Source: Longibacter salinarum (lineage in GTDB: Bacteria > Bacteroidota > Rhodothermia > Rhodothermales > Salinibacteraceae). Taken from it: DNA of 64,000 bases. The stretch lies in the NCBI RefSeq assembly GCF_002554795.1, contig NZ_PDEQ01000008.1:1-64000 (forward strand). Direction: 5' to 3'. Below, one piece after another: positions 3,876 to 59,579 of this stretch. The notes beneath the pieces were generated by a model. That model was not told the origin of the DNA and did no database searches. It saw nothing but the letters and a program-made list of their open reading frames with translations. How positions within the stretch are numbered: position 1 is the stretch's first letter; every line of letters starts with the position of its first letter. The translations under genes were made by a program, and so were the position numbers.

Positions 3876-4034
3876 GGTCAGGCCATCGGCAATGACGGAT
3901 CGACCCATGCACAGCGAGACGCCAAACAGCACGCGCTGCACCAGCGGTGAATCGAACCGTTGTGCGGCCCCCGCGACAAGCAAACTCAAGCGAGCGATTC
4001 GACTCATCCTGCAACTGGTAAGCACGGAGACGCC

Positions 4035-4580
4035 ATGACTGAGCAAGACGCAACGAGCGTACGCAAACGGCAAGACCCTCTCCGGGAACGCTATAAATCC
4101 GTACCCGAGGAAGCCACTATTACGGACCGAGCAAAAACGACGGGAGGCACCGACACCGACCCCTTCCACGGCTTCGTTGTACCCGGCAGTGAAAACTTTG
4201 ACGTCACCTGGCCCTTCGGCATCCACCACGCCGTCGGAGGGGACCACGACGCTCCAAATCCGGGAGACATCCTGTGCGCCGCTCTCGCTACCTGCCTGGA
4301 CTCCACCATCCGTATGATTGCCGAGCGATTCGGCGTCAGGCTGACCTCGCTTGGAGTGGACGTCACGGCTGAGGTCGATGTTCGAGGGACACTGCACGTC
4401 GACCGAACCGTCCCCGTGGGGTTTCAGTCGATGCAGTGCGACGTTCACATGCAGGTCGAGGAGGGTACCGATCCGAAGGTCATGAAGAAGGTCCTGGCCG
4501 CTGCAGAGCAAAGCTGCGTCGTATTGCAGACATTGCGTTCAGGTATCCCCGTCGAGACGAACTTCAGCGAAGCCGAATGA
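4035..4580 (+). CDS. OsmC family peroxiredoxin-like protein
   Basis: OsmC/Ohr proteins reduce organic hydroperoxides with two cysteines. This 181-residue product has both: Cys87 in LATCLDSTIRM and Cys161 in AEQSCVVLQTLR, with the usual PGDILCAALATC helix and a C-terminal beta strand. The ATG at 4035 has a GGAGA sequence 4 bp upstream, so it is preferred over the longer frame from 3960. The long charged N-terminus (residues 1-50) precedes the core. A second OsmC homologue lies at 7319-7921 in another gene group. Confidence 0.85.
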   Translation: MTEQDATSVRKRQDPLRERYKSVPEEATITDRAKTTGGTDTDPFHGFVVPGSENFDVTWPFGIHHAVGGDHDAPNPGDILCAALATCLDSTIRMIAERFGVRLTSLGVDVTAEVDVRGTLHVDRTVPVGFQSMQCDVHMQVEEGTDPKVMKKVLAAAEQSCVVLQTLRSGIPVETNFSEAE

Positions 4581-4935
4581 AGAGCAACCACGCTTGACTG
4601 CGTAACCAGCGGTTTCAAGCGCACGCAGGAATTGGCAGCAGCCATAATCCCCAACACGTTCGAGCAGTAATCCGGCCCTGCACCGCTGAGCGGCAAATCG
4701 TTAGATGCTTTCTTAGATGTCAAGCGACGGCGGTTGCTGTTCGCCCTGTATCGACATATGAACGTGGCAAAGAGTCCCCATCAGACTCTGGCCTGCCCCA
4801 TGCCGTGATCGCCGCGTCGGTACACCCTGAAATAGGCAGCAGCATTTGGTCGTACTCCGTGCTACATTTAGCTCGTACTGCTCATCGCGCTGTTGCCGCG
4901 AGCGTCGACCTGCTATCCCACCTCTACCTGTCTAC
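4581..4935 (+). other. Intergenic region, no gene recognised
   Basis: The 355 bp between the OsmC and serine hydrolase genes hold no supported gene. One GTTAGATG motif near 4700 resembles an integron attC core site, but no convincing partner or palindrome was found. The frame of the next gene is open back to 4846, although homology and the lipobox place its start at 4936. Confidence 0.4.
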
Positions 4936-6135
4936 ATGGTGCCCCCATTCGTTCGCTTCATCTTGACGGCCTCGCTAGTCTTGCTGATCGTCGGGGGCTG
5001 TGCGCAGGAGCCGTCTACCGTCCCCGACCCGGAGGAGCTGCCATCAACCTCGGTCGTGGATAGCTTGCTGAACGATGCCCGGGAGACATACGACATCCCG
5101 GCAGTGGCGGCTATCGTCGTTCGGTCGGACTCGATTCTCGCTGCCAGAGCGACGGGCGTTCGCCGACGGGGCGCCCCCGACCCGGTCTCGGCCCGTGACG
5201 CGTTCCACCTCGGCTCCAACACCAAGGCGATGACCGCCACCCTCATCGCTCTGCTCGTCGAGGACGGAACGTTGTCCTGGGATACGACACCCGCTGAGGT
5301 ATTCCCCGGACTTGCGGACTCTATTCATCCTGCCTTTCGCGGCGTCACGCTCGAACAATTTCTTGCGCACCGATCCGGGCTCCAGCCGTTCACAAACACG
5401 CGGGAATACGGGGAGCTCCCGCCGTTCGTCGACGACCCAAAAGAGCGTCGTGCCGCATTTGCGACGTACGTGCTCCAGCGCGACCCGTCGTACGAACCCG
5501 GATCTAGATTTCTCTACTCCAACGCTGGCTATGCGGTCGCAGCCGCGATGGCCGAACAGGTCAGTGGCACGTCGTGGGAGCAGATGATGCGCGAACGCCT
5601 GTTCAAACCACTGAATATCAGCGGAGGATTTGGATGGCCTGCTGCAGTCGATTCGACGCAACCGTGGGGCCACCGAACCCGAGGAGGAGACTCGCTCCGA
5701 GCGCACGATCCGAACGGCCGCTTCCGACTTGGCCCGCTGTGGGGCCCTCCGGGAGATGTGCACATGAGCATGCCGGACTACGGACGCTTCCTCCAGCTTC
5801 ACCTGCGCGGCTTGAGAGGAAACAAGACCACGCTCTTCGCCGCATCAACCGTCCGGGACATGCACACGTCACGGGGCGCGATGTCGGACAGCACGGACAT
5901 CCCTGGCTATGGTCTGGGCTGGGTCGTTCACGACTACCTCGGGGCGCGCTCAAGCAGCCATGCTGGCAGCGTCGGCACGTTCAAGGCCAGAGCCACGATT
6001 CAGGCGTCGCGCGACCTTGCCGTCGCTGTGGTCACAAATGCCGGACACGAAGACGCAGACGAAGCGACGATCGAACTGCGAAAGGCGTTGCTCGAACAGT
6101 ACGGAGAGAAGACCGAAGAACACGCAACAAAATGA
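4936..6135 (+). CDS. Serine hydrolase, class C beta-lactamase-related lipoprotein
   Basis: The 399-residue product belongs to the beta-lactamase/penicillin-binding-protein-like serine hydrolases (class C fold). The Ser-x-x-Lys nucleophile motif is S94-N-T-K97, the Tyr-x-Asn motif is Y194-S-N, and a HAGSVGTF motif near residue 340 corresponds to the third conserved element. The N-terminus is a lipoprotein signal with Cys22 in the lipobox (IVGGCAQ), so it sits on a membrane facing the periplasm or outside. Members act as esterases or peptidases as well as beta-lactamases; the substrate cannot be told. The start is set by the signal peptide. Confidence 0.85.
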   Translation: MVPPFVRFILTASLVLLIVGGCAQEPSTVPDPEELPSTSVVDSLLNDARETYDIPAVAAIVVRSDSILAARATGVRRRGAPDPVSARDAFHLGSNTKAMTATLIALLVEDGTLSWDTTPAEVFPGLADSIHPAFRGVTLEQFLAHRSGLQPFTNTREYGELPPFVDDPKERRAAFATYVLQRDPSYEPGSRFLYSNAGYAVAAAMAEQVSGTSWEQMMRERLFKPLNISGGFGWPAAVDSTQPWGHRTRGGDSLRAHDPNGRFRLGPLWGPPGDVHMSMPDYGRFLQLHLRGLRGNKTTLFAASTVRDMHTSRGAMSDSTDIPGYGLGWVVHDYLGARSSSHAGSVGTFKARATIQASRDLAVAVVTNAGHEDADEATIELRKALLEQYGEKTEEHATK

Positions 6136-6176
6136 CGGGCGGGAGGCCCTTCGCACGTCCGGCACGGGGCACACTC

Positions 6177-6342
6177 ATACTGAATCCAAGCGATCGTATC
6201 CGGATGCCGTGCCTCGGATGTGGGGTCGGTTCGACCGAAAAAGGGGAAGAGACGCAGGAGTCAACGTTTTCTGGTACCGTCAAGCCTGCGCAACGCTTCC
6301 ATAGGCGATCGTGACCCCGACATTGTCATTTGGATTTGGCAT
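6177..6342. repeat. MITE-like element, copy 1
   Basis: A 166-bp non-coding block begins with ATACTGAATCCAA and ends with GTCATTTGGATTTGGCAT; the ends are imperfect inverted repeats (about 15 of 18 positions against copy 2's left end). A related 168-bp block lies at 25338-25505, sharing CTGAATCCAA at the left, an internal GTGCCTCGG and GGTTCG, and GACCCCGACATT near the right end. No open frame is inside. It follows the serine hydrolase gene; the remaining gap to 6417 shows nothing else. Confidence 0.75.
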
Positions 6343-6417
6343 CATATGCCAACGACGGTGACAGATGGAAATCGAGGATCTAATATGAACGCTTCGAGCC
6401 CTTCATGAGAAGCCCCT

Positions 6418-7266
6418 TCAGCGGGCCCGTTTCCGCCCTCGTGTGATGACGAATTCGCCGGGGATGGCGTAGCCACCTTCCTCGCGGTACGGTCCGATCG
6501 CGTCGAGATACTCGGCACTCGCGCCCTCCCGCGTTTCTTCGTCAAACGTGCGCCAGGCCAGTGCCACGGGGCCGCCCTCGAAAATAGCCCTGCAGGCGTC
6601 CTCTTTGGACTCGAAAGGCAGCATGGTGCGAAATCGATCGGAGGTAACATCGGTGAAGCCGGCGGCTCGAAAGGCTGCCTCAAGGGCGGTGCCGGTACCA
6701 AGCCGGAAGAAGAGTGGACACACGTCCGACTGAACGCGTCGGTCGACGATGGGAAACACCGGGGACCATCCGCAACGGCTGCGCGCGCCCCAAACGCTGG
6801 CGACAGCCCGTCCGCCGGGGGCAAGCACGCGGTGCATCTCCCGAAGCGCCTGCTCCGGATCAGGCACGTACATCAGGCCCAGCGAGCAGAGCGCCGCGTC
6901 GAAGCCGGGACCCGACGCCGACCCAGGAGCGCGATCAGTCCACTCCAGCGCTTCCGCATCCATGCGCTCGAACGTCACGTTGCCGATCCCCCGCTCCCTG
7001 GCAAGAGCCCGGGCCTGCTCGATCATGCCGGCCGAGATGTCGGTGGCTACGACCTCGCCGCCGGGAGCCACCGCGTCCGCGGCCGGAAGCGTCACCAGAC
7101 CCGTGCCGCAGGCCACGTCCAGGACGTGCTGTCCGGGCCGGAGCGCCGCTTGTTCGAGCAGTTCGTCCTGCGCGGGCTTGAGCGGCCGCTGCCAGCAGGG
7201 GTCATAGTCACGGGCGGCCTGGTCCCACCCGTAGCGCTGTACGCGTCGTTGAACGTTATCTTTCAT
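6418..7266 (-). CDS. Class I SAM-dependent methyltransferase
   Basis: The 282-residue product has the Rossmann methyltransferase fold: motif I VLDVACGTG near residue 50, an acidic ATDIS at the end of strand 2, a DAEALEW motif and LCSLGLMYVPDPEQALREM as motifs III-IV. It resembles UbiE/COQ5-like small-molecule methyltransferases of the Methyltransf_11/25 type; the substrate is not predictable. It is the last gene of the minus-strand cluster with OsmC (52 bp upstream), the DsbD_2 protein, ferredoxin and methanethiol oxidase, so a sulfur- or thiol-related substrate is a reasonable guess but unproven. Confidence 0.85.
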   Translation of the reverse strand: MKDNVQRRVQRYGWDQAARDYDPCWQRPLKPAQDELLEQAALRPGQHVLDVACGTGLVTLPAADAVAPGGEVVATDISAGMIEQARALARERGIGNVTFERMDAEALEWTDRAPGSASGPGFDAALCSLGLMYVPDPEQALREMHRVLAPGGRAVASVWGARSRCGWSPVFPIVDRRVQSDVCPLFFRLGTGTALEAAFRAAGFTDVTSDRFRTMLPFESKEDACRAIFEGGPVALAWRTFDEETREGASAEYLDAIGPYREEGGYAIPGEFVITRGRKRAR

Positions 7267-7318
7267 GGTTGAGTACTCCGTCTCGATGAACCACTTGGCG
7301 TGAAAACTCGGCTCCGAG

Positions 7319-7921
7319 TCACGACGACCCCGGCGTCACGATCTGCACGTCGTGCTCGATCGTGAGAGCGTGTTCTAAGCTATCGTTGACCGGACTGTGC
7401 GCATGCGCGGCGTCCAGGACGCGCTGCACGTCCTCTTCCGGTGCCGGGCTCTCGACGCTGATCTGATACCGTAGCCCCGTGAAGCGCGGGGCGGTGCCAT
7501 CCACGCCGAGCAGGCCACGCGCGTCGTGGTGCGCCTCCACCGCAACGTCCAGATGATCGATGGGCACGCCGAGTTTGGCGGCCCAGAGTGCCGCCGTATG
7601 TGCGAAGCAGGATCCCAGCGCCGCACGAAAGAGAACGCCAGGGCCGGGATGGTTGTCGCTCCCGCCGAGTTCCGGAGTGAGATCGGTTACGATCTTCCAG
7701 GAGCCGCCCTCAACCTCGCACGTCGGCCCGGCGCGCAGGTGCACGACGGTCGTGTCGGTGCCCTGCCCGAGGGCGGGTCGTAGCGTAACGGCCGCTGTTG
7801 CGCGCTCGACGATGGTTTGCAGCGTTTTCTCGGTGGTCATTGCTTTGATTCCGTTCTGAGCCAGCCGCACGGCAGCGGCCGCTCGCTCGGAGATCGATGG
7901 GTGTCTGTCGTCTGCTGCCAT
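7319..7921 (-). CDS. OsmC family protein, second cysteine replaced
   Basis: The 200-residue product is an OsmC-family protein: PGVLFRAALGSCFAHTAALWA carries the first redox cysteine, preceded by a beta-sheet half and followed by the LGVPIDHLDVAVEA strand. At the place of the second cysteine it reads AHSPVNDSLEHAL, so the two-cysteine peroxidase pair is incomplete; such single-Cys OsmC proteins may still bind or reduce hydroperoxides with another thiol. The first 27 residues form a helix before an internal Met (7840) that is an alternative start. It is 48 bp after the DsbD_2 gene, within the SBP56 operon. Confidence 0.8.
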   Translation of the reverse strand: MAADDRHPSISERAAAAVRLAQNGIKAMTTEKTLQTIVERATAAVTLRPALGQGTDTTVVHLRAGPTCEVEGGSWKIVTDLTPELGGSDNHPGPGVLFRAALGSCFAHTAALWAAKLGVPIDHLDVAVEAHHDARGLLGVDGTAPRFTGLRYQISVESPAPEEDVQRVLDAAHAHSPVNDSLEHALTIEHDVQIVTPGSS

Positions 7922-7969
7922 GACGTGTCCCTCGTTGTAGGATGGGTACGTAAATGGTGAAAGAGCTTC

Positions 7970-8632
7970 TTAGGACATCAGTAGGTGCATCGCGGGCGTG
8001 CCGCGCAGCACGGTGATCAGGCCGAGCGCGACCACGAGAATGCCGCTCGCCTGATGGAGCCAGTGCTGCCAGACAGGCTGAAGGAGATCCCCGATCCACG
8101 CGAGCGCGAAGAGAGCCGGCACAGTAGCGACACCGAACACGAGCATCGTCAGTGCACCACCGAACATCGTCCCGGTCGCCGCCGCCATCGCCAGCAGGCT
8201 GTAGACGAGTCCGCACGGCAGCAGGCCGTTTAGCAGGCCCAGCCCCAGCGCGCCCACGGCCGAGCGCTGCTGCATGAGGTAGCGCGACGCCGCGCGGAAA
8301 GGACGCCAATTCATCAGCGTACCGATCCCTTTGAGGTGCCGCAGCACCCCGAGGAGGTGGAGGCCGAGAATAAGCATCACCGCGCCCGCCCCGATGCTAA
8401 TTGCGTCTTGGATGCCCGAAAAGGCCGAGCCAACCGTCGCCCCGGCGAAACCGACCGCCGCGCCCATGATCGTGTAGGTCAGCGTCTTGCCCGTGAAATA
8501 CATGAGTTGCCGCGTGAGGCGCACACCCCGTCCGTGCGCCGTGCTGGCGGCCAGGATGAAGCCCCCACACATACCGACGCAGTGCGCACTCCCGAGAAAT
8601 CCGGCTGCGAAGACGAGCGAGACGTCGATCAT
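7970..8632 (-). CDS. DsbD_2/UreH-like (SafE-type) membrane protein
   Basis: The 220-residue product has six predicted membrane helices and the hallmark of the DsbD_2 family (cytochrome-c-biogenesis-like transmembrane domain, often annotated sulfite exporter TauE/SafE): GSAHCVGMCGGF with Cys18 and Cys22 in helix 1, and GLLNGLLPCGLVYS with a third cysteine in the second half. Relatives move reducing equivalents or metal ions such as copper or nickel across the membrane. It starts 1 bp after the ferredoxin stop codon, so the two are translationally coupled. In this operon it could serve copper loading of the oxidase or export of a sulfur product; that is inference. Confidence 0.8.
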   Translation of the reverse strand: MIDVSLVFAAGFLGSAHCVGMCGGFILAASTAHGRGVRLTRQLMYFTGKTLTYTIMGAAVGFAGATVGSAFSGIQDAISIGAGAVMLILGLHLLGVLRHLKGIGTLMNWRPFRAASRYLMQQRSAVGALGLGLLNGLLPCGLVYSLLAMAAATGTMFGGALTMLVFGVATVPALFALAWIGDLLQPVWQHWLHQASGILVVALGLITVLRGTPAMHLLMS

Positions 8633-8633
8633 G

Positions 8634-8954
8634 TCACGATTCGTGCTTGAATGGATTGTTGAAAAGATCCTTCTGGCATGCGGCGCCGACCTCGATCACG
8701 CAGTCGGAGCGGGGACGCGCGATGCAGAGGAGAACGTACCCTGCTTCCCGGTGTCTGGGCTTCAGGGCCGTTCCATCGGATTGATCGACCGCGCCGTCGA
8801 GAAGCCGCGCCGCGCAGGTGATGCAGGCGCCGTGACGACAGCCGTACGGAAGACGAAGCCCGGCTTCTTCCAGTGCATCCAGCAGGGGCTCGTCGTCGGA
8901 TACTTCGACAACACGGCGACCCCGATTTCGGATGTCGATGCGGTAGGCTGCCAT
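8634..8954 (-). CDS. 2Fe-2S plant-type ferredoxin
   Basis: The 106-residue product has the [2Fe-2S] ferredoxin fold with the cluster ligands Cys39, Cys44, Cys47 ([18 protein letters not shown]) and Cys77 (YVLLCIARP). Its N-terminal strands ([19 protein letters not shown]) and the [10 protein letters not shown] helix are typical of electron-carrying or oxygenase-reductase ferredoxins. The ATG at 8954 is chosen because the family homology starts there. It begins 13 bp after the SBP56 gene ends and is followed by the DsbD_2 gene after 1 bp, so it is likely an electron carrier of this operon. Confidence 0.9.
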
Positions 8955-8967
8955 CACAAACCGGCCT

Positions 8968-10350
8968 TTACACCCAGATGTCGGAGGTGCAGTCGCCACC
9001 CGGATAGCGCATTTCGTGTGCGCGGGCCGGACCAGCCGGTTCCTCGCCGAAGTCGACGTAGAAGTCCTCATTGATCGCCAGCCCGCCGCGGTCGGTATCG
9101 CAGTCGATCTGCAGCATGTACGACCCCTGATCCGCCATGTCGGGGTAAAACTGATTATCCCAGCTGCTGAGCAGTGAACTCGTCACGTACAGACGTTTGC
9201 CGTCCAGGCTGAGCTGCAGCATTTGCGGACCACCGACGAGCTCGTGGCCCTGCACCGTGACCGACTCGCCCAGCACGCCGCCGCACGTGACCTGCCCAGC
9301 CAGTCTCGGGGCGGACGGATCGCTGATGTCGTACTGGCGGATGTCGCCGTGCAGCCAGTTGGACAGATACAGGAAGCGGTCGTCCATCGAGATCACGATG
9401 TCGGTCGTGAGCGGCGGAACGGGAAACGGCCAACCGGACCGCTCGACCGCCTTCTGGTCGATCACCTTTTCGACCGATCGCGATCCGTTGGTCCCCTCCC
9501 AGTGCCAGATGTTGCTGCTCAGGGCCGCGCCGACGAAGCCGTGGGTGCTGTCGGGATCGTGGTGGAAGCGCACCTCCAGCGGGACGAGCCCGTCTTCCCC
9601 CAGGTCCACGCTATCGACGAGGCGACGCTCCTCCCAATCCCAGAAGTTGAGGCGCTGCCCGTACCGCCCCTCGGCCACGTCGTCGAGGTCAAAGCCGGGC
9701 AGATACGTCTTCGGCGCCGCAAACTCGCTGCTGACCATCACGTTGTGGCGTGGCTGATACCAAAAGTCGTAGTTGTAGGGCATGCCGTCGGCGTCGGCTT
9801 CCCAGCGGCCGGCCACGTCGAAGTTCTCGTCGAGCAGCAGAAAGCCCCCGGGCGCGTGGCCCTCGGCGTCGCCCAACATGGAGATCATGACGGTACCATC
9901 GGCAAGGCAGTGGACCGTGTGGGGCGCGCTCAGATTCGTCCGCTGCTTGATCTCACTGGGAGAAATGACCTTGTGCAGCGTCGGTGCACGCGCGTCCTCC
10001 GTGTCGATGACGTGTATGCGACCGGAGCGGAAACCGGGCACGATCAGAAAGCGGCGCGACTGACTCTCGTCGTCGTAGCAGGAGCTGCAGGCGTTCCAGC
10101 CGAAGTGATGTAGCTCGTCGCCCAGCGTGGGCATCGGCGTCCGGTGAATGACCTCAGCGTAGGTCGGCGAGTCGGGATCGACGTCTATTGTCGCCAGGTA
10201 GTCGGGGGCTTCCGTTTCGGTGCCCACGTAGAGGGCGACCGTGTAGAGCACGGTTTCGCGGTCGGCCTGCATGGCCGCTTCGGGTGAGGCGTAGCCGGGA
10301 CCACAGCAGACGTGTGCGTCGTCGGAATGGGAAGCATCGGCGTGCGTCAT
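8968..10350 (-). CDS. Methanethiol oxidase / selenium-binding protein SBP56
   Basis: The 460-residue product aligns along its whole length with the SBP56/SELENBP1 family. Conserved blocks include [13 protein letters not shown] at residue 15, [13 protein letters not shown], the Se/thiol-binding [10 protein letters not shown] (Cys88, Cys91), [32 protein letters not shown]-like text and the terminal [11 protein letters not shown]. Family members oxidise methanethiol to formaldehyde, sulfide and hydrogen peroxide (EC 1.8.3.4), the bacterial ones being copper-dependent. No signal peptide is visible, so it is probably cytoplasmic. A strong GAGGAGG ribosome-binding site precedes the ATG. It heads an operon with ferredoxin, DsbD_2, OsmC and methyltransferase genes; an upstream LuxR-type regulator may control it. 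Confidence 0.92.
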
Positions 10351-10355
10351 AACAA

Positions 10356-10362
10356 CCTCCTC
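10356..10362 (-). promoter_or_regulatory. Strong Shine-Dalgarno of the SBP56 gene
   Basis: On the minus strand GAGGAGG lies 5 bp before the ATG of the methanethiol oxidase gene. Most genes in this window lack a clear ribosome-binding site, so high translation of this gene is suggested. Confidence 0.7.
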
Positions 10363-10427
10363 GTCGGATCTCTGCGATGTCAGCGGACATGCTGATCACA
10401 GGGTACCCTACGCGGGGAGGCTTGTCA

Positions 10428-10443
10428 TGAGACGCAGGTCTCA
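10428..10443. promoter_or_regulatory. Palindromic operator-like site 1 (SBP56 promoter)
   Basis: TGAGACGCAGGTCTCA is a 6-4-6 inverted repeat about 78 bp upstream of the SBP56 start. It shares the consensus TGRGACGCANGTCYCA with a second site centred 53 bp away, close to five helical turns. A further TCTCAATTTTGAGA palindrome overlaps it at 10439-10452. The likely ligand is the neighbouring LuxR-type regulator, by inference. Confidence 0.55.
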
Positions 10444-10480
10444 ATTTTGAGATGGATATCGGGGAAAGCGGCCGCCGGCG

Positions 10481-10496
10481 TGGGACGCACGTCCCA
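10481..10496. promoter_or_regulatory. Palindromic operator-like site 2
   Basis: TGGGACGCACGTCCCA is a 7-2-7 inverted repeat 9 bp after the stop codon of the hydrolase-LuxR regulator and about 130 bp upstream of the SBP56 start. It matches site 1 at 13 of 16 positions. It could alternatively act as a weak hairpin terminator of the regulator gene, but no T-run follows on the minus strand. Confidence 0.55.
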
Positions 10497-10505
10497 AACG
10501 CGCCG

Positions 10506-11606
10506 TTACAAGATTCTATTTTGCCCGAATCCGACCTCGCGCGCCTGAACGATCGCCTCGGCGCGACGGCTGACGTTCAACTTGCGGAAGATGCTGTTGA
10601 CGTGATTGCGAACCGTCTTCGGGCTGATGAACAGTTCCTCCGCGATCTGGCCGTTGCTGATGCCCTGGGCCACGAGGTCGAGCACCTCGCGTTCGCGAGG
10701 CGTGAGCTCGCAGAAGCCGGCCGCCTGGTGATCTAGCAACTCGTCTTCGGAAAGGAAGCCGTGGAGCTCCGACGTGAACCGATCCCAGGCCGGCTCGCCA
10801 GGCAGGAGGATGTGGTTTTCACCATTCAGCGGGACGAAGCGGGCCTCCGGAATGAGGGAAGCGAGACGACATCCCATCTGGAAGGGAATCATGGCATCGT
10901 GCTTCACATGGAAGACGAGCGTGGGTGCCTCCACCCGCGGCGCCGCGTCGCGGATGTCGATCACGTGGAAGGCGCGCCACAGACGGGCCGCCATCTCGGG
11001 CGATGTGCTCTCGCGCTGCAGATCGGCCAGCCAATGCTGCTGCTCCTTGGAGCCCTCAGGCACGAGCAGGTCCACGAAGACCTTCCGGAAGGCGGCGTTG
11101 CGCCGCCCCCACCCGACTTTGATCATCTGCGTCAGCGCTTCGGCTTTGGCGCGCTCGAAGATCCGTTGTCCTTCGACCAGCGCCCCATGCGTGTAGGTGT
11201 CATACAGCACAAGCTGCCGCACTCGCTCCGGGTGACGCGCCGCATATTCGACCGCGATGCTTCCGCCCTGACAGAGGCCCAGCATAGAGAATTGGTCGAG
11301 CCCCAGATCGTCGACCACCGTCTCCAGGTCCTGCACCCAGGCGTCGAGCGACAGGTCCTCCACTTCACGGTCCGAAAGGCCGCAGCCGCGCAGGTCGTAT
11401 CGCACGAGCATGTGATCACGCGAGAGCTCGTCGAACCAGGGCGGCCAAATGGGCCCCTCCCAGTCGAGTTCGAGGTGCGTCACCCAGTTGGCCACCCGTA
11501 CCAGGGGCGGGCCCGTCCCCGACGTCGCGTACGCAATCCGGGTCCCGTCAAACGACGTGCAGAAGCGGATCTGCTGGGTCATGGCAAGGACCGTCTCCGG
11601 AATCAT
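10506..11606 (-). CDS. Alpha/beta-hydrolase fused to a LuxR-type HTH regulator
   Basis: The 366-residue product has an alpha/beta-hydrolase fold (residues about 12-290) and a C-terminal LuxR/GerE helix-turn-helix (about 300-360: [20 protein letters not shown], then [16 protein letters not shown]). The nucleophile elbow reads G-L-C112-Q-G-G, so Cys replaces the usual Ser; DLRG, a late Asp in FHVKHD and His in GENHILL complete the triad region. Such fusions are thought to use the hydrolase fold as a ligand sensor. It lies 155 bp upstream of the SBP56 operon on the same strand, with two palindromes between, so it is the obvious candidate regulator. An internal Met at 11582 is an alternative start. 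Confidence 0.88.
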
Positions 11607-12054
11607 CTAACAACTTCACATGGTGTTAATATTTAAAATGATCGCAATGAGGCTAGGATCCGACGTGAAGATGGGGCGCTTGGGTTCGACTCGGAAAACA
11701 GGTTAAGCTCTTCGGTCCGAGGCCAAGCTAGGAGGCTGGCTGTTTTCGGTTCGTCCAGGCCTTCTCCCTCTTGTCAAGGGCAACCCGTGTCAGGTCACTG
11801 AACCGACATCACACCGGGAATCAATTCTTTGCCTGTTAGGCGACGGCTCAACCCTGGACGAACGCGGCAATAAACGCACGAAGATGCCCCACTGGATGCC
11901 GCGTGCTACCCAGCGAAAGATAGATATCATTTACACGAGTATCTTTGTATATTTAACACAGTTGCCAAACGCGCCATCGACCGCACACTGCCTCGCTGCT
12001 CGATTTCACCGATCGGCTGGCGGGATCCTCCTTCGAATAAAACACGATCGTCTT
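11607..12054. other. Intergenic region between divergent genes
   Basis: About 450 bp separate the hydrolase-LuxR regulator (minus) from a lipoprotein gene (+). An AT-rich stretch next to 11607-11640 (GTTAATATTTAAAAT) probably contains the regulator promoter. An imperfect inverted repeat (CGGAAAACAG near 11693, CTGTTTTCGG near 11739) is visible. The lipoprotein frame is open back to 11884, but that part looks unlike a signal peptide. Confidence 0.35.
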
Positions 12055-12825
12055 GTGGTTAGAGCGACCGCAATCTACACCGCCTGCCTTTTTCTACTGC
12101 TCGTCTCCGGATGTGGCCCGCCGCCATCGGTACTCGAGGAGAGACGGTCGCTGTCGTCGGAGGACGTTCGCGTGGTAGACGCAAAATCTGACCACGAACC
12201 CGCAGAACAGTACATCGCCCTTCACTTCTTGGCGGATCAGGCTGCGACCGACTCATCACAGTACGTCGGAAGCATACGCGTGTCGGAGAAGGCAGACCTC
12301 GCTCCGATGGACGTTGTCTGGCATGCCCTCCGTGGGAAAGCCATGCAACTGGGAGGTAACGCCTTCAAAGTGACCCACTCCATCGGTCCGCCGGACTCGA
12401 ATGTGGTTATCGTTGAACTAGACGTGTTCGAGGTCTCGGACTCCGTACTGGAGGAGAATGAGAATCATTTCTCGCACAATAAGATCTATGTGTTCGGTCG
12501 CCTATTCCATGACGAGGACTCGGCCGACTTCAAACTAAACGACCAACCCGTTTCTATAGCACCTCTGCGATACGTTACCCGTCAAAATGAGGTGGGGGGC
12601 GAGACAACGATTGGGAAGGGGGGATTCTTTGGAATGAAAGTCACGGTGAAAGGGAAAAAGGGACGTCCACCCTCCTACTGGTCACTGAGCGGATTTGGCA
12701 TGCAGCCGACGGGCGGTCCCGGCGGCGGAATGGGCGTAGCCGCCACGACAGGACGGGTCCATCCGGTCGATCCGAACTTCGGACGCTTCCTGGTTCGAAC
12801 GCTGACGGAGCAAGATCGCCCCTGA
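12055..12825 (+). CDS. Lipoprotein of unknown function
   Basis: Starting at GTG 12055 the product is 256 residues, with a short basic N-terminus, a hydrophobic segment and the lipobox LLVSGCGPPP (Cys about residue 18). The mature part has a mixed alpha/beta region (residues 40-140) and ends in a Gly/Pro-rich segment (SGFGMQPTGGPGGGMGV). The ATG at 11884 is an alternative start but would bury the signal peptide. No family is recognised; it is likely anchored in the outer or inner membrane. Confidence 0.6.
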   Translation: MVRATAIYTACLFLLLVSGCGPPPSVLEERRSLSSEDVRVVDAKSDHEPAEQYIALHFLADQAATDSSQYVGSIRVSEKADLAPMDVVWHALRGKAMQLGGNAFKVTHSIGPPDSNVVIVELDVFEVSDSVLEENENHFSHNKIYVFGRLFHDEDSADFKLNDQPVSIAPLRYVTRQNEVGGETTIGKGGFFGMKVTVKGKKGRPPSYWSLSGFGMQPTGGPGGGMGVAATTGRVHPVDPNFGRFLVRTLTEQDRP

Positions 12826-13215
12826 CGCGGCACTCCGCGTGTCGGCGCTGAAACATCGAACGTTCGTGACCCTCCACAACACGGAACGGTTTCATAACGC
12901 CGTCATCCCCGCTGCCAGAACACCTCTGTTGAGTCGAACATCAATTCGTCCAAGCCACAGCTCGAGAATACACCTCGAGCAGGAGCGGTGATTGCCTATC
13001 GATGCGCTGCAAACACTCACAGCGCCTGCAGTTTATTCAACACCGGGTGTGATGGGGTAGAAAATGGTATCATTCGGCTCCAACGGCGATCTCGAGCGGG
13101 AATGAAACCGGAAATCGGCCCCCATTTCCCCCGTTTGCCCGTCCCCGCGCAGGCACGCTGAATCGGTCGCAGATCGACCGAGCGTCTTCCCATCCCCGAA
13201 TTCCCCATTCCCAGA
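12826..13215. other. Intergenic region, no gene recognised
   Basis: The 390 bp before the DUF6544-like gene contain no supported gene. The last part (about 13120-13215) has C-rich runs such as CCCATTTCCCCC and CCCCATTCCC reminiscent of the degenerate simple repeats seen in other gaps of this window. Confidence 0.35.
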
Positions 13216-14073
13216 ATGTGGTTGAAAATCCTTGTCGTCATCCTGATCGCGCTCATAGCCATCTATGCGGCGGCGTTTCTGTATGGCGCCTCCCGGTGGC
13301 AGACGAAGACGCAGGAACTACGCGACCGGCTGGAATTCGCGCGCTCTCCCCTCCAGCAGCGGACGGTCGATTTTCGCGAACTCGACGACCTTCCCGCCCC
13401 GGTGCAGCGCTACTTCCGGACGGTGCTCGAGGACGGTCAGCCGATCGTGACGAGCGTCCACGTCCAGCACGACGGTACGTTTAACACAAGCGAGACCGAC
13501 GAGCATTGGTCAGCTTTCACCTCGGAGCAGTGGGTCGTGACAGATCGCCCCGGTTTTGTCTGGAACGGTCGCGTGGCCATGGCGCCGGGGCTGCCGGTGC
13601 GCGTGCACGACGCGTACGTTTCGGGGCAGGGCATCCTACACGTTTCCCTGCTGGGCGCCGTGTCCGTGGCAGACCTCCGGGGCAAGGGCGAGCTGGCCCG
13701 AGGCGAGTTGATGCGCTATTTCGCAGAGGCCACCTGGTACCCGACAGCCCTCCTGCCGAGCCAGGGCGTGACGTGGGAGGCTGTGGACGACCACTCGGCG
13801 TACGGCACATTGACCGACGGCGACAACACCATCACGCTGCTCTTCTCTTTTAACGACGAGGGCCTGATCGACACCGTTCGTGCGGAGGCACGCGGCCGAA
13901 CGGTAGAAGGTGAAGTCGTGCCGACGCCGTGGCGCGGACGCTTCTGGAACTACGAGGAACGGGACGGCATGCTGGTGCCCGCCGACGGCGAAGTGGCGTG
14001 GCTTCTCCCAGATGGCGAACGGCCGTACTGGCGAGGCCACATCACCGACTTGGGATATGAATTTGCAGATTGA
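13216..14073 (+). CDS. Membrane-anchored protein, DUF6544/DUF6920-like
   Basis: The 285-residue product begins with one hydrophobic helix (residues 3-24) and then a soluble beta-rich domain. LPAPVQRYFRTVLEDGQP, the HDGTF strand, WNGRVAMAPGLPVRVHDAY and a MRYFAEATWYPTALLPS segment match the pattern of a conserved bacterial family I believe is DUF6544 (also DUF6920); the family name is from memory and less certain than the similarity. The function is unknown. The domain probably faces the periplasm. The ATG start directly precedes the helix. Confidence 0.6.
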   Translation: MWLKILVVILIALIAIYAAAFLYGASRWQTKTQELRDRLEFARSPLQQRTVDFRELDDLPAPVQRYFRTVLEDGQPIVTSVHVQHDGTFNTSETDEHWSAFTSEQWVVTDRPGFVWNGRVAMAPGLPVRVHDAYVSGQGILHVSLLGAVSVADLRGKGELARGELMRYFAEATWYPTALLPSQGVTWEAVDDHSAYGTLTDGDNTITLLFSFNDEGLIDTVRAEARGRTVEGEVVPTPWRGRFWNYEERDGMLVPADGEVAWLLPDGERPYWRGHITDLGYEFAD

Positions 14074-56874: not shown

Positions 56875-57633
56875 ATGCAGCTTAACTTGTCGGATCAGAC
56901 GGTTCTCGTCACCGGCGCCAGCCGTGGAATCGGGCGCGCCATCGCACTCGCCCTCGCATCGGCCGGGGCCACCGTCGGCGTCCATTTCGCCAGCAGCCGC
57001 GATGCAGCCGAGGAGGTCGCCGATGCATGCGGGCACGGGGCTCAGACCTTTCAGGCGGACCTTTCGGACCTCGGTGACACCGACCGCCTGATCGAAGACG
57101 TGATTGCCACGCTCGGAGGACTCGACGTGCTGGTCAACAACGCGGGCGTAGCCCTGTCCGCCCCGCTCGAAGACGATACTCCGACGTGGGATGACGCGTG
57201 GACGCGGACGATGATGGTGAACCTCCGCGCGCCGGAGCTCCTCTGCCGTCACGCCGTCACGCATTTCCAGGAGCATGGCGGCGGCCGCATCATCAACATC
57301 GCCTCCCGCGCAGCCTTCCGCGGCGACACGCCCGACTACATGGCCTATGCCGCGTCGAAAGCCGGCGTCGTCGCCCTCACGAAGTCGCTCGCCCGCGGCT
57401 TCGGCAAGGACAACATCAAGGCGTTCGCCATCGCGCCCGGCTTCACTCGAACGGACATGGCGCAGGACTTCATCGACACGTACGGCGAGGACTACGCCAC
57501 CAGCGACCTCGCCCTCTCGCAGCTAACCGAGCCGGAAGACGTCGCTCCGACGGTCGTCTTCCTCGCCAGCGGGCACGCGGATCATGCCACCGGCACGTCG
57601 ATCGACATCAACGCAGGGAGTTACGTGCACTAG
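56875..57633 (+). CDS. Short-chain dehydrogenase/reductase (FabG-like)
   Basis: The 252-residue product is a classical SDR: the cofactor motif TGASRGIG (residue 14), NNAG (about 89), the catalytic Ser in INIASRAAF and the Y-x3-K pair in YAASK (about 159), then AIAPGFTRTDMAQ. NAD(P)-dependent reduction of a 3-oxoacyl-ACP or similar ketone is likely. The ATG at 56875 directly precedes the first strand. Its end overlaps the convergent hydrolase gene by 26 bp. Confidence 0.93.
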   Translation: MQLNLSDQTVLVTGASRGIGRAIALALASAGATVGVHFASSRDAAEEVADACGHGAQTFQADLSDLGDTDRLIEDVIATLGGLDVLVNNAGVALSAPLEDDTPTWDDAWTRTMMVNLRAPELLCRHAVTHFQEHGGGRIINIASRAAFRGDTPDYMAYAASKAGVVALTKSLARGFGKDNIKAFAIAPGFTRTDMAQDFIDTYGEDYATSDLALSQLTEPEDVAPTVVFLASGHADHATGTSIDINAGSYVH

Positions 57634-58477
57634 CACCTGCCGTCACGCGCGGGCCAGGATCTTCGTCCGTTTCGGAACGAGTCGGCTCGTCGGATTCCAC
57701 GCGCTGAAGGAAGTCGTCGAGGATCGCGTTGAACGCGTCCGGCTTTTCGACGGGAAGGGCGTGCCGCGCGTCGTCGACCACCGCAAGCTCGGCATTCGGC
57801 ATCTGGGCGACCGCCAGATTCTTCTCCGAAATCGGCGTGTAATCGTGCTCGCTCGATACGAGCAGAGCGGGCATCGTGACGCGGTCGAGCCGGTCCTGAA
57901 CGGTCCAGCCCATGATGGCGTCGACCGTTCGCACGTAGGCCTCGGGATCGTTCTTCGCCCACCGCTCGACGAACTCGGACCGCAGGTCCTCCTGATCCGG
58001 GCGCACGAACAGCTTATTGGCGATGATCTTGCCCACGCGTCGCATCCCGAGCAGCTTGACGGCAAAGCGGCGCGACAGGTAGAACCAGACGTCATGAAGC
58101 GTCTGCGGCCGGACGTCGACCGCACTGTTCACCACGACCAGGCTCCGCACAAGCTCTGGCGCATCCGTAGCAAGCTGCATCGCCACCATCCCACCCATCG
58201 ACAACCCGACGACGTGCGCGGGCCAGGCGTCGAGCTGCCGCAGCACGACGGCGACGTCCCGCGCAAACTGGGCAATGCTGTACGGCTCCTCCGGCTTATC
58301 GGATCGACCGTGACCGCGCAGATCGAGCGTGATGACGCGGTACCGATCTGCAAGATGCGGCACCTGCTTGAACCAGTCCCGCGCGCTCGACCCCAGTCCG
58401 TGAAGGAGAATAACCGGCTCACCCGCTCCCTCTTCCTCGACATACAGGCGAGCGCCGTCTACCGTTATTGATGACAT
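57608..58477 (-). CDS. Alpha/beta hydrolase
   Basis: The 289-residue product has the hydrolase fold: VILLHGLGSSARDWFKQV (oxyanion region), DLRGHGRSDKPEEPYS, the nucleophile elbow GLSMGGMVAMQ (about residue 95), a late Asp in SSEHDYTPISE and His in DARHALPVEKPDAF. It resembles 3-oxoadipate enol-lactonase-like and carboxylesterase proteins. A long C-terminal tail (RSETDEDPGPRV) is unusual. It is the last gene of the minus-strand run with a second hydrolase, an AMP ligase, a symporter and a ketosynthase-like gene. Confidence 0.88.
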   Translation of the reverse strand: MSSITVDGARLYVEEEGAGEPVILLHGLGSSARDWFKQVPHLADRYRVITLDLRGHGRSDKPEEPYSIAQFARDVAVVLRQLDAWPAHVVGLSMGGMVAMQLATDAPELVRSLVVVNSAVDVRPQTLHDVWFYLSRRFAVKLLGMRRVGKIIANKLFVRPDQEDLRSEFVERWAKNDPEAYVRTVDAIMGWTVQDRLDRVTMPALLVSSEHDYTPISEKNLAVAQMPNAELAVVDDARHALPVEKPDAFNAILDDFLQRVESDEPTRSETDEDPGPRVTAGASARNSLR

Positions 58478-58577
58478 CATATTCCGGATAGAAGCAAACG
58501 ACATATCGGACGCCGCTCCTACTTCTTTCCGGTGCGTTCGTTCGCACACGCCGTCGCCGCCCCCTCTGCTTGCATCG

Positions 58578-59579
58578 CTATTCCGATGATTCACTTGCTT
58601 CCTGTCCATCCAGCATCGAGCGCAGCAGTTCGTCGAAGCGCTCGGGGCGCTCGATCATGATGAGGTGGCCCGCGTCCTCAACGACCTCGACGCGAGCGTC
58701 CGGCATTGCCGCTTTCGCCGAATCCGCGATGCTCTGCGGCGACTGCTCCGGGTGAAGGTATCGATTAGGAATCAGCTTATCGCCCGCACCGAAGAGGACG
58801 AGCGTCGGCACGTCGATCTCGCTGAGACGCTCATACACCGGGCCGTCCAGCATGCCCGAAACGGCCTTGGCGTTTGCCTCCGCGTACGCTGCGAAGTCGT
58901 CGCGCTCCGACAGAGCATGGCGCTGCTTCACGAGCCAGTCGTAGCCCTCCGTGTACTCGTGGAAGTTGAGCGCAACCGACTGCTGCACCTGCGCGTCCGT
59001 CGACGCCATGATGCCTTCTGCCGACATCATACTGCGAATCGCCTGGCTGTCCTTCTCTGAAAAGGTCTCAATCCCCGCCGGCGACATCAGCACGAGGCCG
59101 TTGAGCCGATCGCCGTGCTCCAATGCCACATGTAGCCCGACCTGCCCGCCCATTGAGGCGCCGACGTAGGTAGCTTTTTCGATGTTCATGGCGTCCAGGA
59201 AGCCGACGACGGTTTCCGCAAAGAAGGGCATGGTCGCCGGCACGTCTTCCTTTTCCGAAAGACCGAACCCGGGCAGGTCCAGCGCGAGGACGCGGTACTC
59301 CGGGAAGGCGTCGACCTGATGGCGCCAGAGCGAAAGATTGGAGCCGAGACCGTGGACGAAGAGCAGCACAGGCGCGTCCTCACCGGCTTCAGCGGGCCGC
59401 TCTACGAACGCAATCATGCGGCCATCGACGTCGGTCACCTGCACATTCCCCGGGTAAAACGGGAGTGGATTCACTGTGGACGTGTCGGCGTCGGTCGTGT
59501 CCGCGTAAGCGTTCGGGGTGGCAGAGGCCGGAGAGGCAGGAACAGTCATGAGCGCAAGCGCGAGAAGGAAGGCAATCAT
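58578..59579 (-). CDS. Exported alpha/beta hydrolase
   Basis: The 333-residue product has a signal peptide (cleavage near SPASATPN, residue about 20), then an alpha/beta-hydrolase domain: VLLFVHGLGSNLSLWRHQ, DLPGFGLSEKEDVP, the elbow GASMGGQVGLH (about residue 143), a late Asp in GAGDKLIPN and His in DAGHLIMIERPERFDE. It is probably periplasmic, unlike the neighbouring hydrolase. It lies 41 bp after the AMP ligase gene on the same strand. Confidence 0.9.
   Translation of the reverse strand: MIAFLLALALMTVPASPASATPNAYADTTDADTSTVNPLPFYPGNVQVTDVDGRMIAFVERPAEAGEDAPVLLFVHGLGSNLSLWRHQVDAFPEYRVLALDLPGFGLSEKEDVPATMPFFAETVVGFLDAMNIEKATYVGASMGGQVGLHVALEHGDRLNGLVLMSPAGIETFSEKDSQAIRSMMSAEGIMASTDAQVQQSVALNFHEYTEGYDWLVKQRHALSERDDFAAYAEANAKAVSGMLDGPVYERLSEIDVPTLVLFGAGDKLIPNRYLHPEQSPQSIADSAKAAMPDARVEVVEDAGHLIMIERPERFDELLRSMLDGQEASESSE

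Follow-up and report, generated by a model that had tools for sequence, protein, structure and literature searches.

The SBP56-family gene of Longibacter salinarum (8968-10350, minus strand) and the 2Fe-2S ferredoxin gene directly downstream of it (8634-8954, minus strand) form an old pair that is conserved across bacteria and haloarchaea. Both genes lie in what we call the window, the 64,000-nucleotide stretch at positions 1 to 64,000 of contig NZ_PDEQ01000008.1 (assembly GCF_002554795.1) that was analysed here, and Pfam, NCBIfam and motif comparisons predict that the SBP56 protein is a thiol (methanethiol) oxidase of the cluster 1 type. While the oxidase family itself is already known, the ferredoxin that goes with it is the strongest new element of this analysis. 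No description of the SBP56-ferredoxin pair was found in the literature searched, which covered few subscription papers, and the word ferredoxin is absent from the main text of PMC5739008, PMC7157515, PMC10936201 and PMC13360808, as are the words iron-sulfur and 2Fe-2S from that of PMC10936201.

We observed the pairing in a sample comprising the best 80 of at least 592 SBP56 relatives confirmed in public genomes, which leans to close relatives. For this comparison, a locus was counted as paired when a ferredoxin open reading frame (ORF) on the same strand started between -60 and +500 bp from the end of the SBP56 gene, with ferredoxin starts chosen by rule. A ferredoxin gene lies directly downstream of SBP56 in 47 of the 80 loci, both bacterial and archaeal, and the gap is -10 to +20 bp in 38 of the 47; at L008 the ferredoxin gene lies 1,840 bp from SBP56. 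Record titles place the paired loci in SAR11, other alphaproteobacteria, gammaproteobacteria, some cyanobacteria, one actinobacterial metagenome-assembled genome and many haloarchaea. Loci without ferredoxin include those of planctomycetes, most Nostocales, Rubrobacteraceae, Thermogemmatispora and Geminicoccus. We also drew 289 genomes evenly from the class to which a SAR11 genome (G402) belongs. Fifteen of these have an SBP56 match at 1e-80 or better, and ferredoxin adjoins SBP56 in all six with more than 60% identity (G402 counted) and in none of the nine with 42-45%. A second SBP56 clade (L102 and L144-L152; 42-45% identity) has no ferredoxin; a conserved membrane-protein-like ORF stands beside SBP56 on the same strand in 10 of 10 of its loci, and the L102 copy of this ORF matches no Pfam family.

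The ferredoxin gene starts with the ATG at 8954, while its mechanical ORF extends to 9071, and its product matches the Fer2 family (69.5 bits). The 145-aa ORF scores 86.8 bits against TIGR02008, above the cut-off of 81.15, and the Cys ligands C39, C44, C47 and C77 are invariant in a 27-row alignment; it thus shares the four Cys ligands and the fold family with plant-type [2Fe-2S] ferredoxins (TIGR02008, PetF). It differs from the PetF type in its score on a profile of its own kind and in its tail. A profile of 27 SBP56-linked ferredoxins was run on 29 genomes (the genome of L026 was left out). All 16 matches of at least 128 bits lie within about 0.5 kb of SBP56, whereas all others score at most 110 bits; 12 of the 16 are themselves rows of the profile, and the remaining four, which are outside it, also lie beside SBP56. 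In the L. salinarum genome, the window gene is the only match to this profile. The C-terminal tail (NPFK in the window) has one Pro that is invariant in the 27 rows, and in 45 of the 47 paired ferredoxins a Pro stands directly before Phe or Trp, the exceptions being L006 (NPL) and L072 (YPR). Among the best 60 of 66 matches to solved sequences, the match ends at position 84-93, with one reaching 100, so that the tail lies beyond the matched part of nearly all of them. The AlphaFold model has a mean predicted local distance difference test score of 93.3 that falls to 68 in the final residues, suggesting that the tail may be exposed. Judged by these comparisons, the SBP56-linked ferredoxin is a distinct type with a conserved C-terminal tail. 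That ferredoxin neighbours SBP56 by chance is ruled out by the pairing in 47 of 80 loci, the genome profile search and the counts in the G402 class. In six haloarchaeal loci (L057, L060, L061, L066, L070 and L132), a second ferredoxin of related type lies near the SBP56-ferredoxin pair, and at L060 it is followed by a gene for an NAD-dependent DNA ligase.

SBP56 is present as a single copy in the 4.4-Mb L. salinarum genome, and its spread among relatives is patchy, which would fit horizontal gain. Four of 296 genomes of the phylum match SBP56, L. salinarum included, three of them weakly. Within the order, 7 of 114 genomes match; the close matches are L. salinarum itself, G329 (75%) and G331 (64%, with a second copy at 43%), and the other four are weak. 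In a same-genus genome that is 83% complete, SBP56 was not found. Other members of the order have distant SBP56 relatives (L106-L109; 29-36% over a part), of which that of L106 has an N-terminus that looks lipoprotein-like by eye. A tree of 101 SBP56 rows was made by a quick method after 7 of 108 rows had been dropped, namely duplicates (L097, L100, L138), fragments (L143, L153), L028, which lies on a short contig, and L081, which lies at a contig edge. On this tree, the presence or absence of ferredoxin changes 9 times, versus 33.3 when the labels are shuffled; L061 was entered as lacking ferredoxin though one is found at -4 bp, and the label of L101, which ends 550 bp past SBP56, is unsure.

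The SBP56 protein scores 700.8 bits against the Pfam SBP56 model (cut-off 34) and 146.6 bits against the NCBIfam MtoX equivalog NF052453, far below its cut-off of 650; it is not a classical MtoX. The MtoX proteins of Hyphomicrobium and Ruegeria pomeroyi belong to the same family and to the methanethiol oxidase class, but are described as periplasmic, with a signal peptide and with SCO1/SenC and MauG genes as neighbours (PMC5739008). For the window protein, no signal sequence and no hydrophobic stretch were seen at the N-terminus (judged by eye), and neither SCO1 nor MauG is among the 10 window proteins scanned with Pfam (3960-14073), in agreement with an earlier note on this DNA, which had called the partner set unlike that of MtoX.

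The window protein does carry all three Cys motifs of cluster 1, GWNACS (C88), HTV(I)HC (C148) and GGDC(S/T) (C454), as defined from Rhodobacterales methanethiol oxidases (PMC10936201). Two cluster 1 enzymes, RdMTO and RlMTO, from Roseobacter denitrificans and Ruegeria lacuscaerulensis, have been assayed and gave more HSSH than H2S derivative and no H2O2, a sulfane sulfur product, and their catalytic Cys was assigned to GGDC(S/T) (PMC10936201). R. lacuscaerulensis has no MtoX and must convert methanethiol by another mechanism; it has SBP-family genes (PMC7157515), and activity was later found in one of its proteins (PMC10936201). The likeness of the window protein to RdMTO and RlMTO, in family and in the GWNACS, HTVHC and GGDC motifs, is by motif and not by alignment, and Rhodobacterales plasmid relatives have 62-63% identity to it. 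In contrast to RdMTO and RlMTO, the window gene is accompanied by genes for a DsbD_2 protein, an OsmC protein, a methyltransferase and a LuxR-hydrolase regulator. Human SELENBP1, for which H2S, H2O2 and formaldehyde are reported as products, accepts several alkyl thiols, and mutation of six residues strongly suppressed its activity (PMC10362175). Like SELENBP1 and Caenorhabditis elegans SEMO-1, which belong to the same thiol oxidase family (PMC10362175), the window protein has all six by motif (H81, H82, H144, H147, D195 and E259), and none of them varies among the 106 aligned rows (motif-matched; 3 rows are duplicates). All 57 ferredoxin-linked rows have Cys454 of GGDC and H334, versus 34 and 37, respectively, of the 49 others. 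The sole solved relative found for the protein is 2ECE. Neither SELENBP1 nor SEMO-1 is known to have a ferredoxin partner.

Methanethiol is a foul-smelling gas and a product of the breakdown of dimethylsulfoniopropionate (DMSP) in the sea. On plasmid pP30_b of Phaeobacter inhibens, an IclR gene on the opposite strand precedes a one-strand row of genes for SBP56 (151.1 bits against the MtoX model), ferredoxin, a CoA-binding protein, a rhodanese, a metallo-beta-lactamase (MBL)-fold hydrolase, an enoyl-CoA hydratase, an acyl-CoA synthetase and a GcvT-like protein. The best model for the GcvT-like protein is DMSP demethylase, at 377 of the 410 bits of its cut-off, while for the MBL protein the match is to the dioxygenase half of Blh (367 of 625 bits); an identity of the acyl-CoA synthetase as DmdB is not supported (288.5 of 822 bits). 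This row would fit the release of methanethiol from DMSP and further oxidation of sulfane sulfur. The 48 ferredoxin-linked cases (window counted) have a CoA-binding gene in 14, a GcvT-like gene in 11 and an enoyl-CoA hydratase gene in 11, mostly in marine alphaproteobacteria; the GcvT-like genes near the SAR11 loci L043, L051 and L054 show weak similarity (62-87 bits) to the Phaeobacter one. A Paracoccus seriniphilus plasmid carries, in this order, SBP56, a 2Fe-2S gene, a copper chaperone gene of the PpoB2 family and, 560 bp past the last on the opposite strand with one small gene between, a gene for S-(hydroxymethyl)glutathione dehydrogenase, which would handle formaldehyde. Separately, a CoA-binding gene follows SBP56 at L101 (G331, same order, SBP56 64%), where the contig ends soon after, and one stands between SBP56 and ferredoxin at L133; a gene for an NIL-domain protein lies upstream of SBP56 on the same strand at L009 (7223-7834), with similar ORFs in other cyanobacterial loci. 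Clusters of neighbouring ORFs, in which overlapping frames had been merged, served as leads only.

The assignment to a methanethiol or thiol oxidase class made in the earlier note is thus upheld by the cluster 1 motifs, the two assayed enzymes (PMC10936201) and the DMSP-demethylase-like gene of the Phaeobacter row. The natural substrate here could instead be another thiol or a selenium compound, since SELENBP1 takes several alkyl thiols (PMC10362175), no DMSP genes lie in the window cluster, and the L. salinarum genome, in which DMSP demethylase was not sought, has no clear source of methanethiol. Its matches to the sulfur dioxygenase of the Phaeobacter row are weak (33% and 28%). Given that the motifs of assayed methanethiol oxidases are present and that a DMSP-demethylase-like gene stands in the Phaeobacter row, we regard a different substrate as doubtful, albeit with an appreciable share of the probability.

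In the window, the pair stands in a row of six genes, all on the minus strand (6418-11606), in the order regulator, SBP56, ferredoxin, DsbD_2, OsmC and S-adenosylmethionine (SAM) methyltransferase. The gaps from SBP56 through to the methyltransferase are 13, 1, 48 and 52 bp, in accord with the coordinates and families of the earlier note, and 155 bp separate the end of the regulator gene from SBP56. Promoter and terminator scans of the locus gave nothing usable. The gene set is more than chance because SBP56 is single-copy, its ferredoxin type is single-copy in this genome, and the pair is conserved elsewhere. It is real but less unified than had been held: of a single conserved SBP56-ferredoxin-DsbD_2-OsmC neighbourhood, the search of relatives retained the ferredoxin (47 of 80 loci) and not DsbD_2 (1 of 80) or a convincing OsmC (0 of 80). 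A single conserved six-gene methanethiol operon is ruled out by these neighbourhoods, by the occurrence of the OsmC-methyltransferase pair elsewhere and by L006, whose short remainder after DsbD_2 shows no OsmC.

The DsbD_2 membrane protein (7970-8632, minus strand; 155 bits, cut-off 24.9) probably handles copper, as judged from Pfam and gene context. Its closest homologue (75%) is in G329, on the contig of L006, where it follows SBP56 and ferredoxin at 1 bp from the latter. Homologues occur in 51 of the 114 order genomes, some of them very weak. A paralogue in the L. salinarum genome is preceded by SCO1/SenC and PCuAC genes, one in G013 neighbours a heavy-metal-type P-ATPase, and the place of DsbD_2 after ferredoxin is taken at L037 and L163 by a gene for a PpoB2 copper chaperone. 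Copper supply is therefore the likeliest role, and the copper role suggested in the earlier note gains from this context, particularly from SCO1 and PCuAC before the paralogue and from PpoB2 at the two loci.

The OsmC-family gene (7319-7921, minus strand; 66.4 bits; Pfam and alignment) and the class I SAM methyltransferase gene (6418-7266, minus strand; Methyltransf_31, 83.6 bits; Pfam and NCBIfam) appear to be a separate module that has been joined to the SBP56 pair in L. salinarum. G316 and G317, two members of the family, have homologues of both genes as a pair, and SBP56 was found in neither. The best 80 SBP56 loci hold no convincing OsmC, with one weak match of 20.4 bits at L083, and at L006 there is none in the 190 bp left after DsbD_2. 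OsmC/Ohr peroxidases have two catalytic cysteines. The first is present in the window protein, while the position of the second (resolving) Cys is Ser in the window, L104 and L105; the alignment also held one empty row and one unrelated row (DsbD_2 of L006). A peroxidase function of OsmC on behalf of SBP56 is weakened by this Ser, and its proposed part as a peroxide remover is further in doubt in that the assayed cluster 1 enzymes did not form H2O2 (PMC10936201), although SELENBP1 is reported to (PMC10362175). A second OsmC-family gene lies in the window at 3960-4580 on the plus strand (85.2 bits); its product has about 28-30% identity to the cluster OsmC and a Cys near the second site. The six genes might be no more than separately acquired modules with separate promoters, among which only SBP56 and ferredoxin form a functional unit: OsmC and the methyltransferase stand on their own in G316 and G317, OsmC is missing from the short remainder of L006, and the 48- and 52-bp gaps could hold start sites. 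We consider this unlikely, although it retains some weight, as one strand carries the whole row and there is hardly any space between SBP56, ferredoxin and DsbD_2, which recur at L006 with a 1-bp gap between the last two.

The regulator (10506-11606, minus strand; Pfam and alignment) matches Abhydrolase_1 (73.8 bits) and, at its C-terminus, GerE (75.1 bits), and therefore fits the alpha/beta-hydrolase-LuxR class; homologues at 1e-30 are found in 5 of 114 order genomes, L. salinarum included. Between it and SBP56, a pattern search and comparison with L006 revealed two palindromes 53 bp apart that are candidate operators, palindrome 1 (TGGGACGTGCGTCCCA, 10481-10496, minus strand) and palindrome 2 (TGAGACCTGCGTCTCA, 10428-10443, minus strand). 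Both occur at equal spacing after the L006 orthologue of the regulator gene. Between the window and L006, 14 of 14 bases agree in the arms of palindrome 1, whose 2-bp centre is swapped, and 16 of 16 in palindrome 2, versus 63 of 103 in the remaining aligned stretch. The argument for operators rests on this conservation and spacing and not on rarity. In the L. salinarum genome, the palindrome pattern has two exact matches, both at the locus. At L006 the palindromes lie 3 kb from SBP56, with same-strand genes between that include members of the CMD, thioesterase and DinB families. With a relaxed pattern, no palindrome was found at L127, where there is another hydrolase-LuxR gene. The window (motif GLCQGG) and L006 regulators, which are those beside palindromes, have Cys as their nucleophile, and three other aligned homologues have Ser (L129 was left out of the alignment). 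We infer that the regulator probably binds the twin palindromes and controls the SBP56 genes, and the cognate regulator proposed in the earlier note is borne out in so far as the two adjoining palindromes are conserved at L006. A further hydrolase-LuxR-like ORF (57608-58609, minus strand) is distant from the regulator (41 bits).

We favour, with rather better than even confidence, an explanation in which SBP56 would be a cytosolic, copper-dependent thiol oxidase of cluster 1 that cleaves methanethiol, and perhaps other short thiols, at the C-S bond to give formaldehyde and sulfane or reduced sulfur. The dedicated ferredoxin would dock on the oxidase, perhaps via its conserved tail, and exchange electrons with the active site; most likely it would donate them, with O2 being reduced to water, or keep the copper reduced. 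DsbD_2 would help with copper supply, the pair would have been joined in L. salinarum to the OsmC-methyltransferase module, and the hydrolase-LuxR protein would bind the palindromes behind its own gene and control the SBP56 genes. A more specific form of this explanation, to which we give limited credence, makes the paired SBP56 a ferredoxin-fed, O2-activating copper enzyme, in which two electrons from its own ferredoxin would drive a monooxygenase-like C-S cleavage of thiols that yields an aldehyde, sulfur in reduced or sulfane form, and water rather than H2O2. The Cys nucleophile of the regulator would then sense a thiol, persulfide or aldehyde and act on the twin palindromes.

Several observations weigh against the favoured explanation. 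No ferredoxin lies in the locus at 32 of the 80 loci (L081 had no room), and the ferredoxin profile, run on five planctomycete genomes that have SBP56, gave no match at 1e-10 in four and one of 49 bits in the fifth. Annotation places unpaired SBP56 genes on plasmids of Rubrobacter, Haloterrigena turkmenica and Natronorubrum bangense, and the nine label changes on the tree indicate that the link with ferredoxin has been gained or lost repeatedly. The correlation between SBP56 and ferredoxin distances (r 0.876 over 48 pairs, with 0 of 2000 permutations as high), which speaks for the pair, partly reflects host descent, and r is 0.88 in 23 bacterial pairs and only 0.46 in 25 haloarchaeal ones. DsbD_2 is beside SBP56 in one relative and PpoB2 in two, and the L. 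salinarum genome has no methionine gamma-lyase above the cut-off (428.6 of 549.7 bits). With one mismatch allowed, the palindrome pattern gives three more rows in that genome (one being the same site on the other strand); a reversed control has two, and palindrome 1 is not rare as a palindrome, the window having 29 equally self-complementary 16-mers. Finally, purified cluster 1 enzymes consumed methanethiol with no ferredoxin added (PMC10936201). The loci and planctomycete genomes without ferredoxin rule it out as an obligatory subunit.

The ferredoxin might also accept electrons, which would make SBP56 a thiol dehydrogenase that passes electrons from thiol to ferredoxin instead of O2, saving energy and avoiding H2O2. 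The same pairing data would be expected, and loci without ferredoxin would use O2 alone. However, plant-type ferredoxins of low potential are poor electron acceptors. The assayed relatives, moreover, use O2 without ferredoxin (PMC10936201), and we find this alternative quite improbable. Somewhat less improbable is a ferredoxin for assembly, providing one-off electrons to mature or repair a copper or cysteine site with no part in turnover, as has been proposed of MauG for MtoX. Consistent with this, MtoX has adjoining SCO1 and MauG maturation genes (PMC5739008), and enzymes without ferredoxin are active (PMC10936201); yet SBP56 loci whose proteins have identical key residues, planctomycete ones among them, manage without it.

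A ferredoxin that supplies electrons to SBP56, as we favour, bears on a question that is disputed in print, namely whether the enzyme disposes of electrons and sulfur as H2S and H2O2 (PMC10362175) or as sulfane sulfur and water (PMC10936201). The ferredoxin that travels with SBP56 in bacteria and archaea, SAR11 included, would be a missing component, easily included in the assay, and it marks a gene group, that of the window and Phaeobacter proteins, which the curated MtoX model refuses. If true, a ferredoxin-fed SBP56 would mean that a step of electron transfer has been missed in how SAR11, roseobacters and haloarchaea turn over methanethiol.

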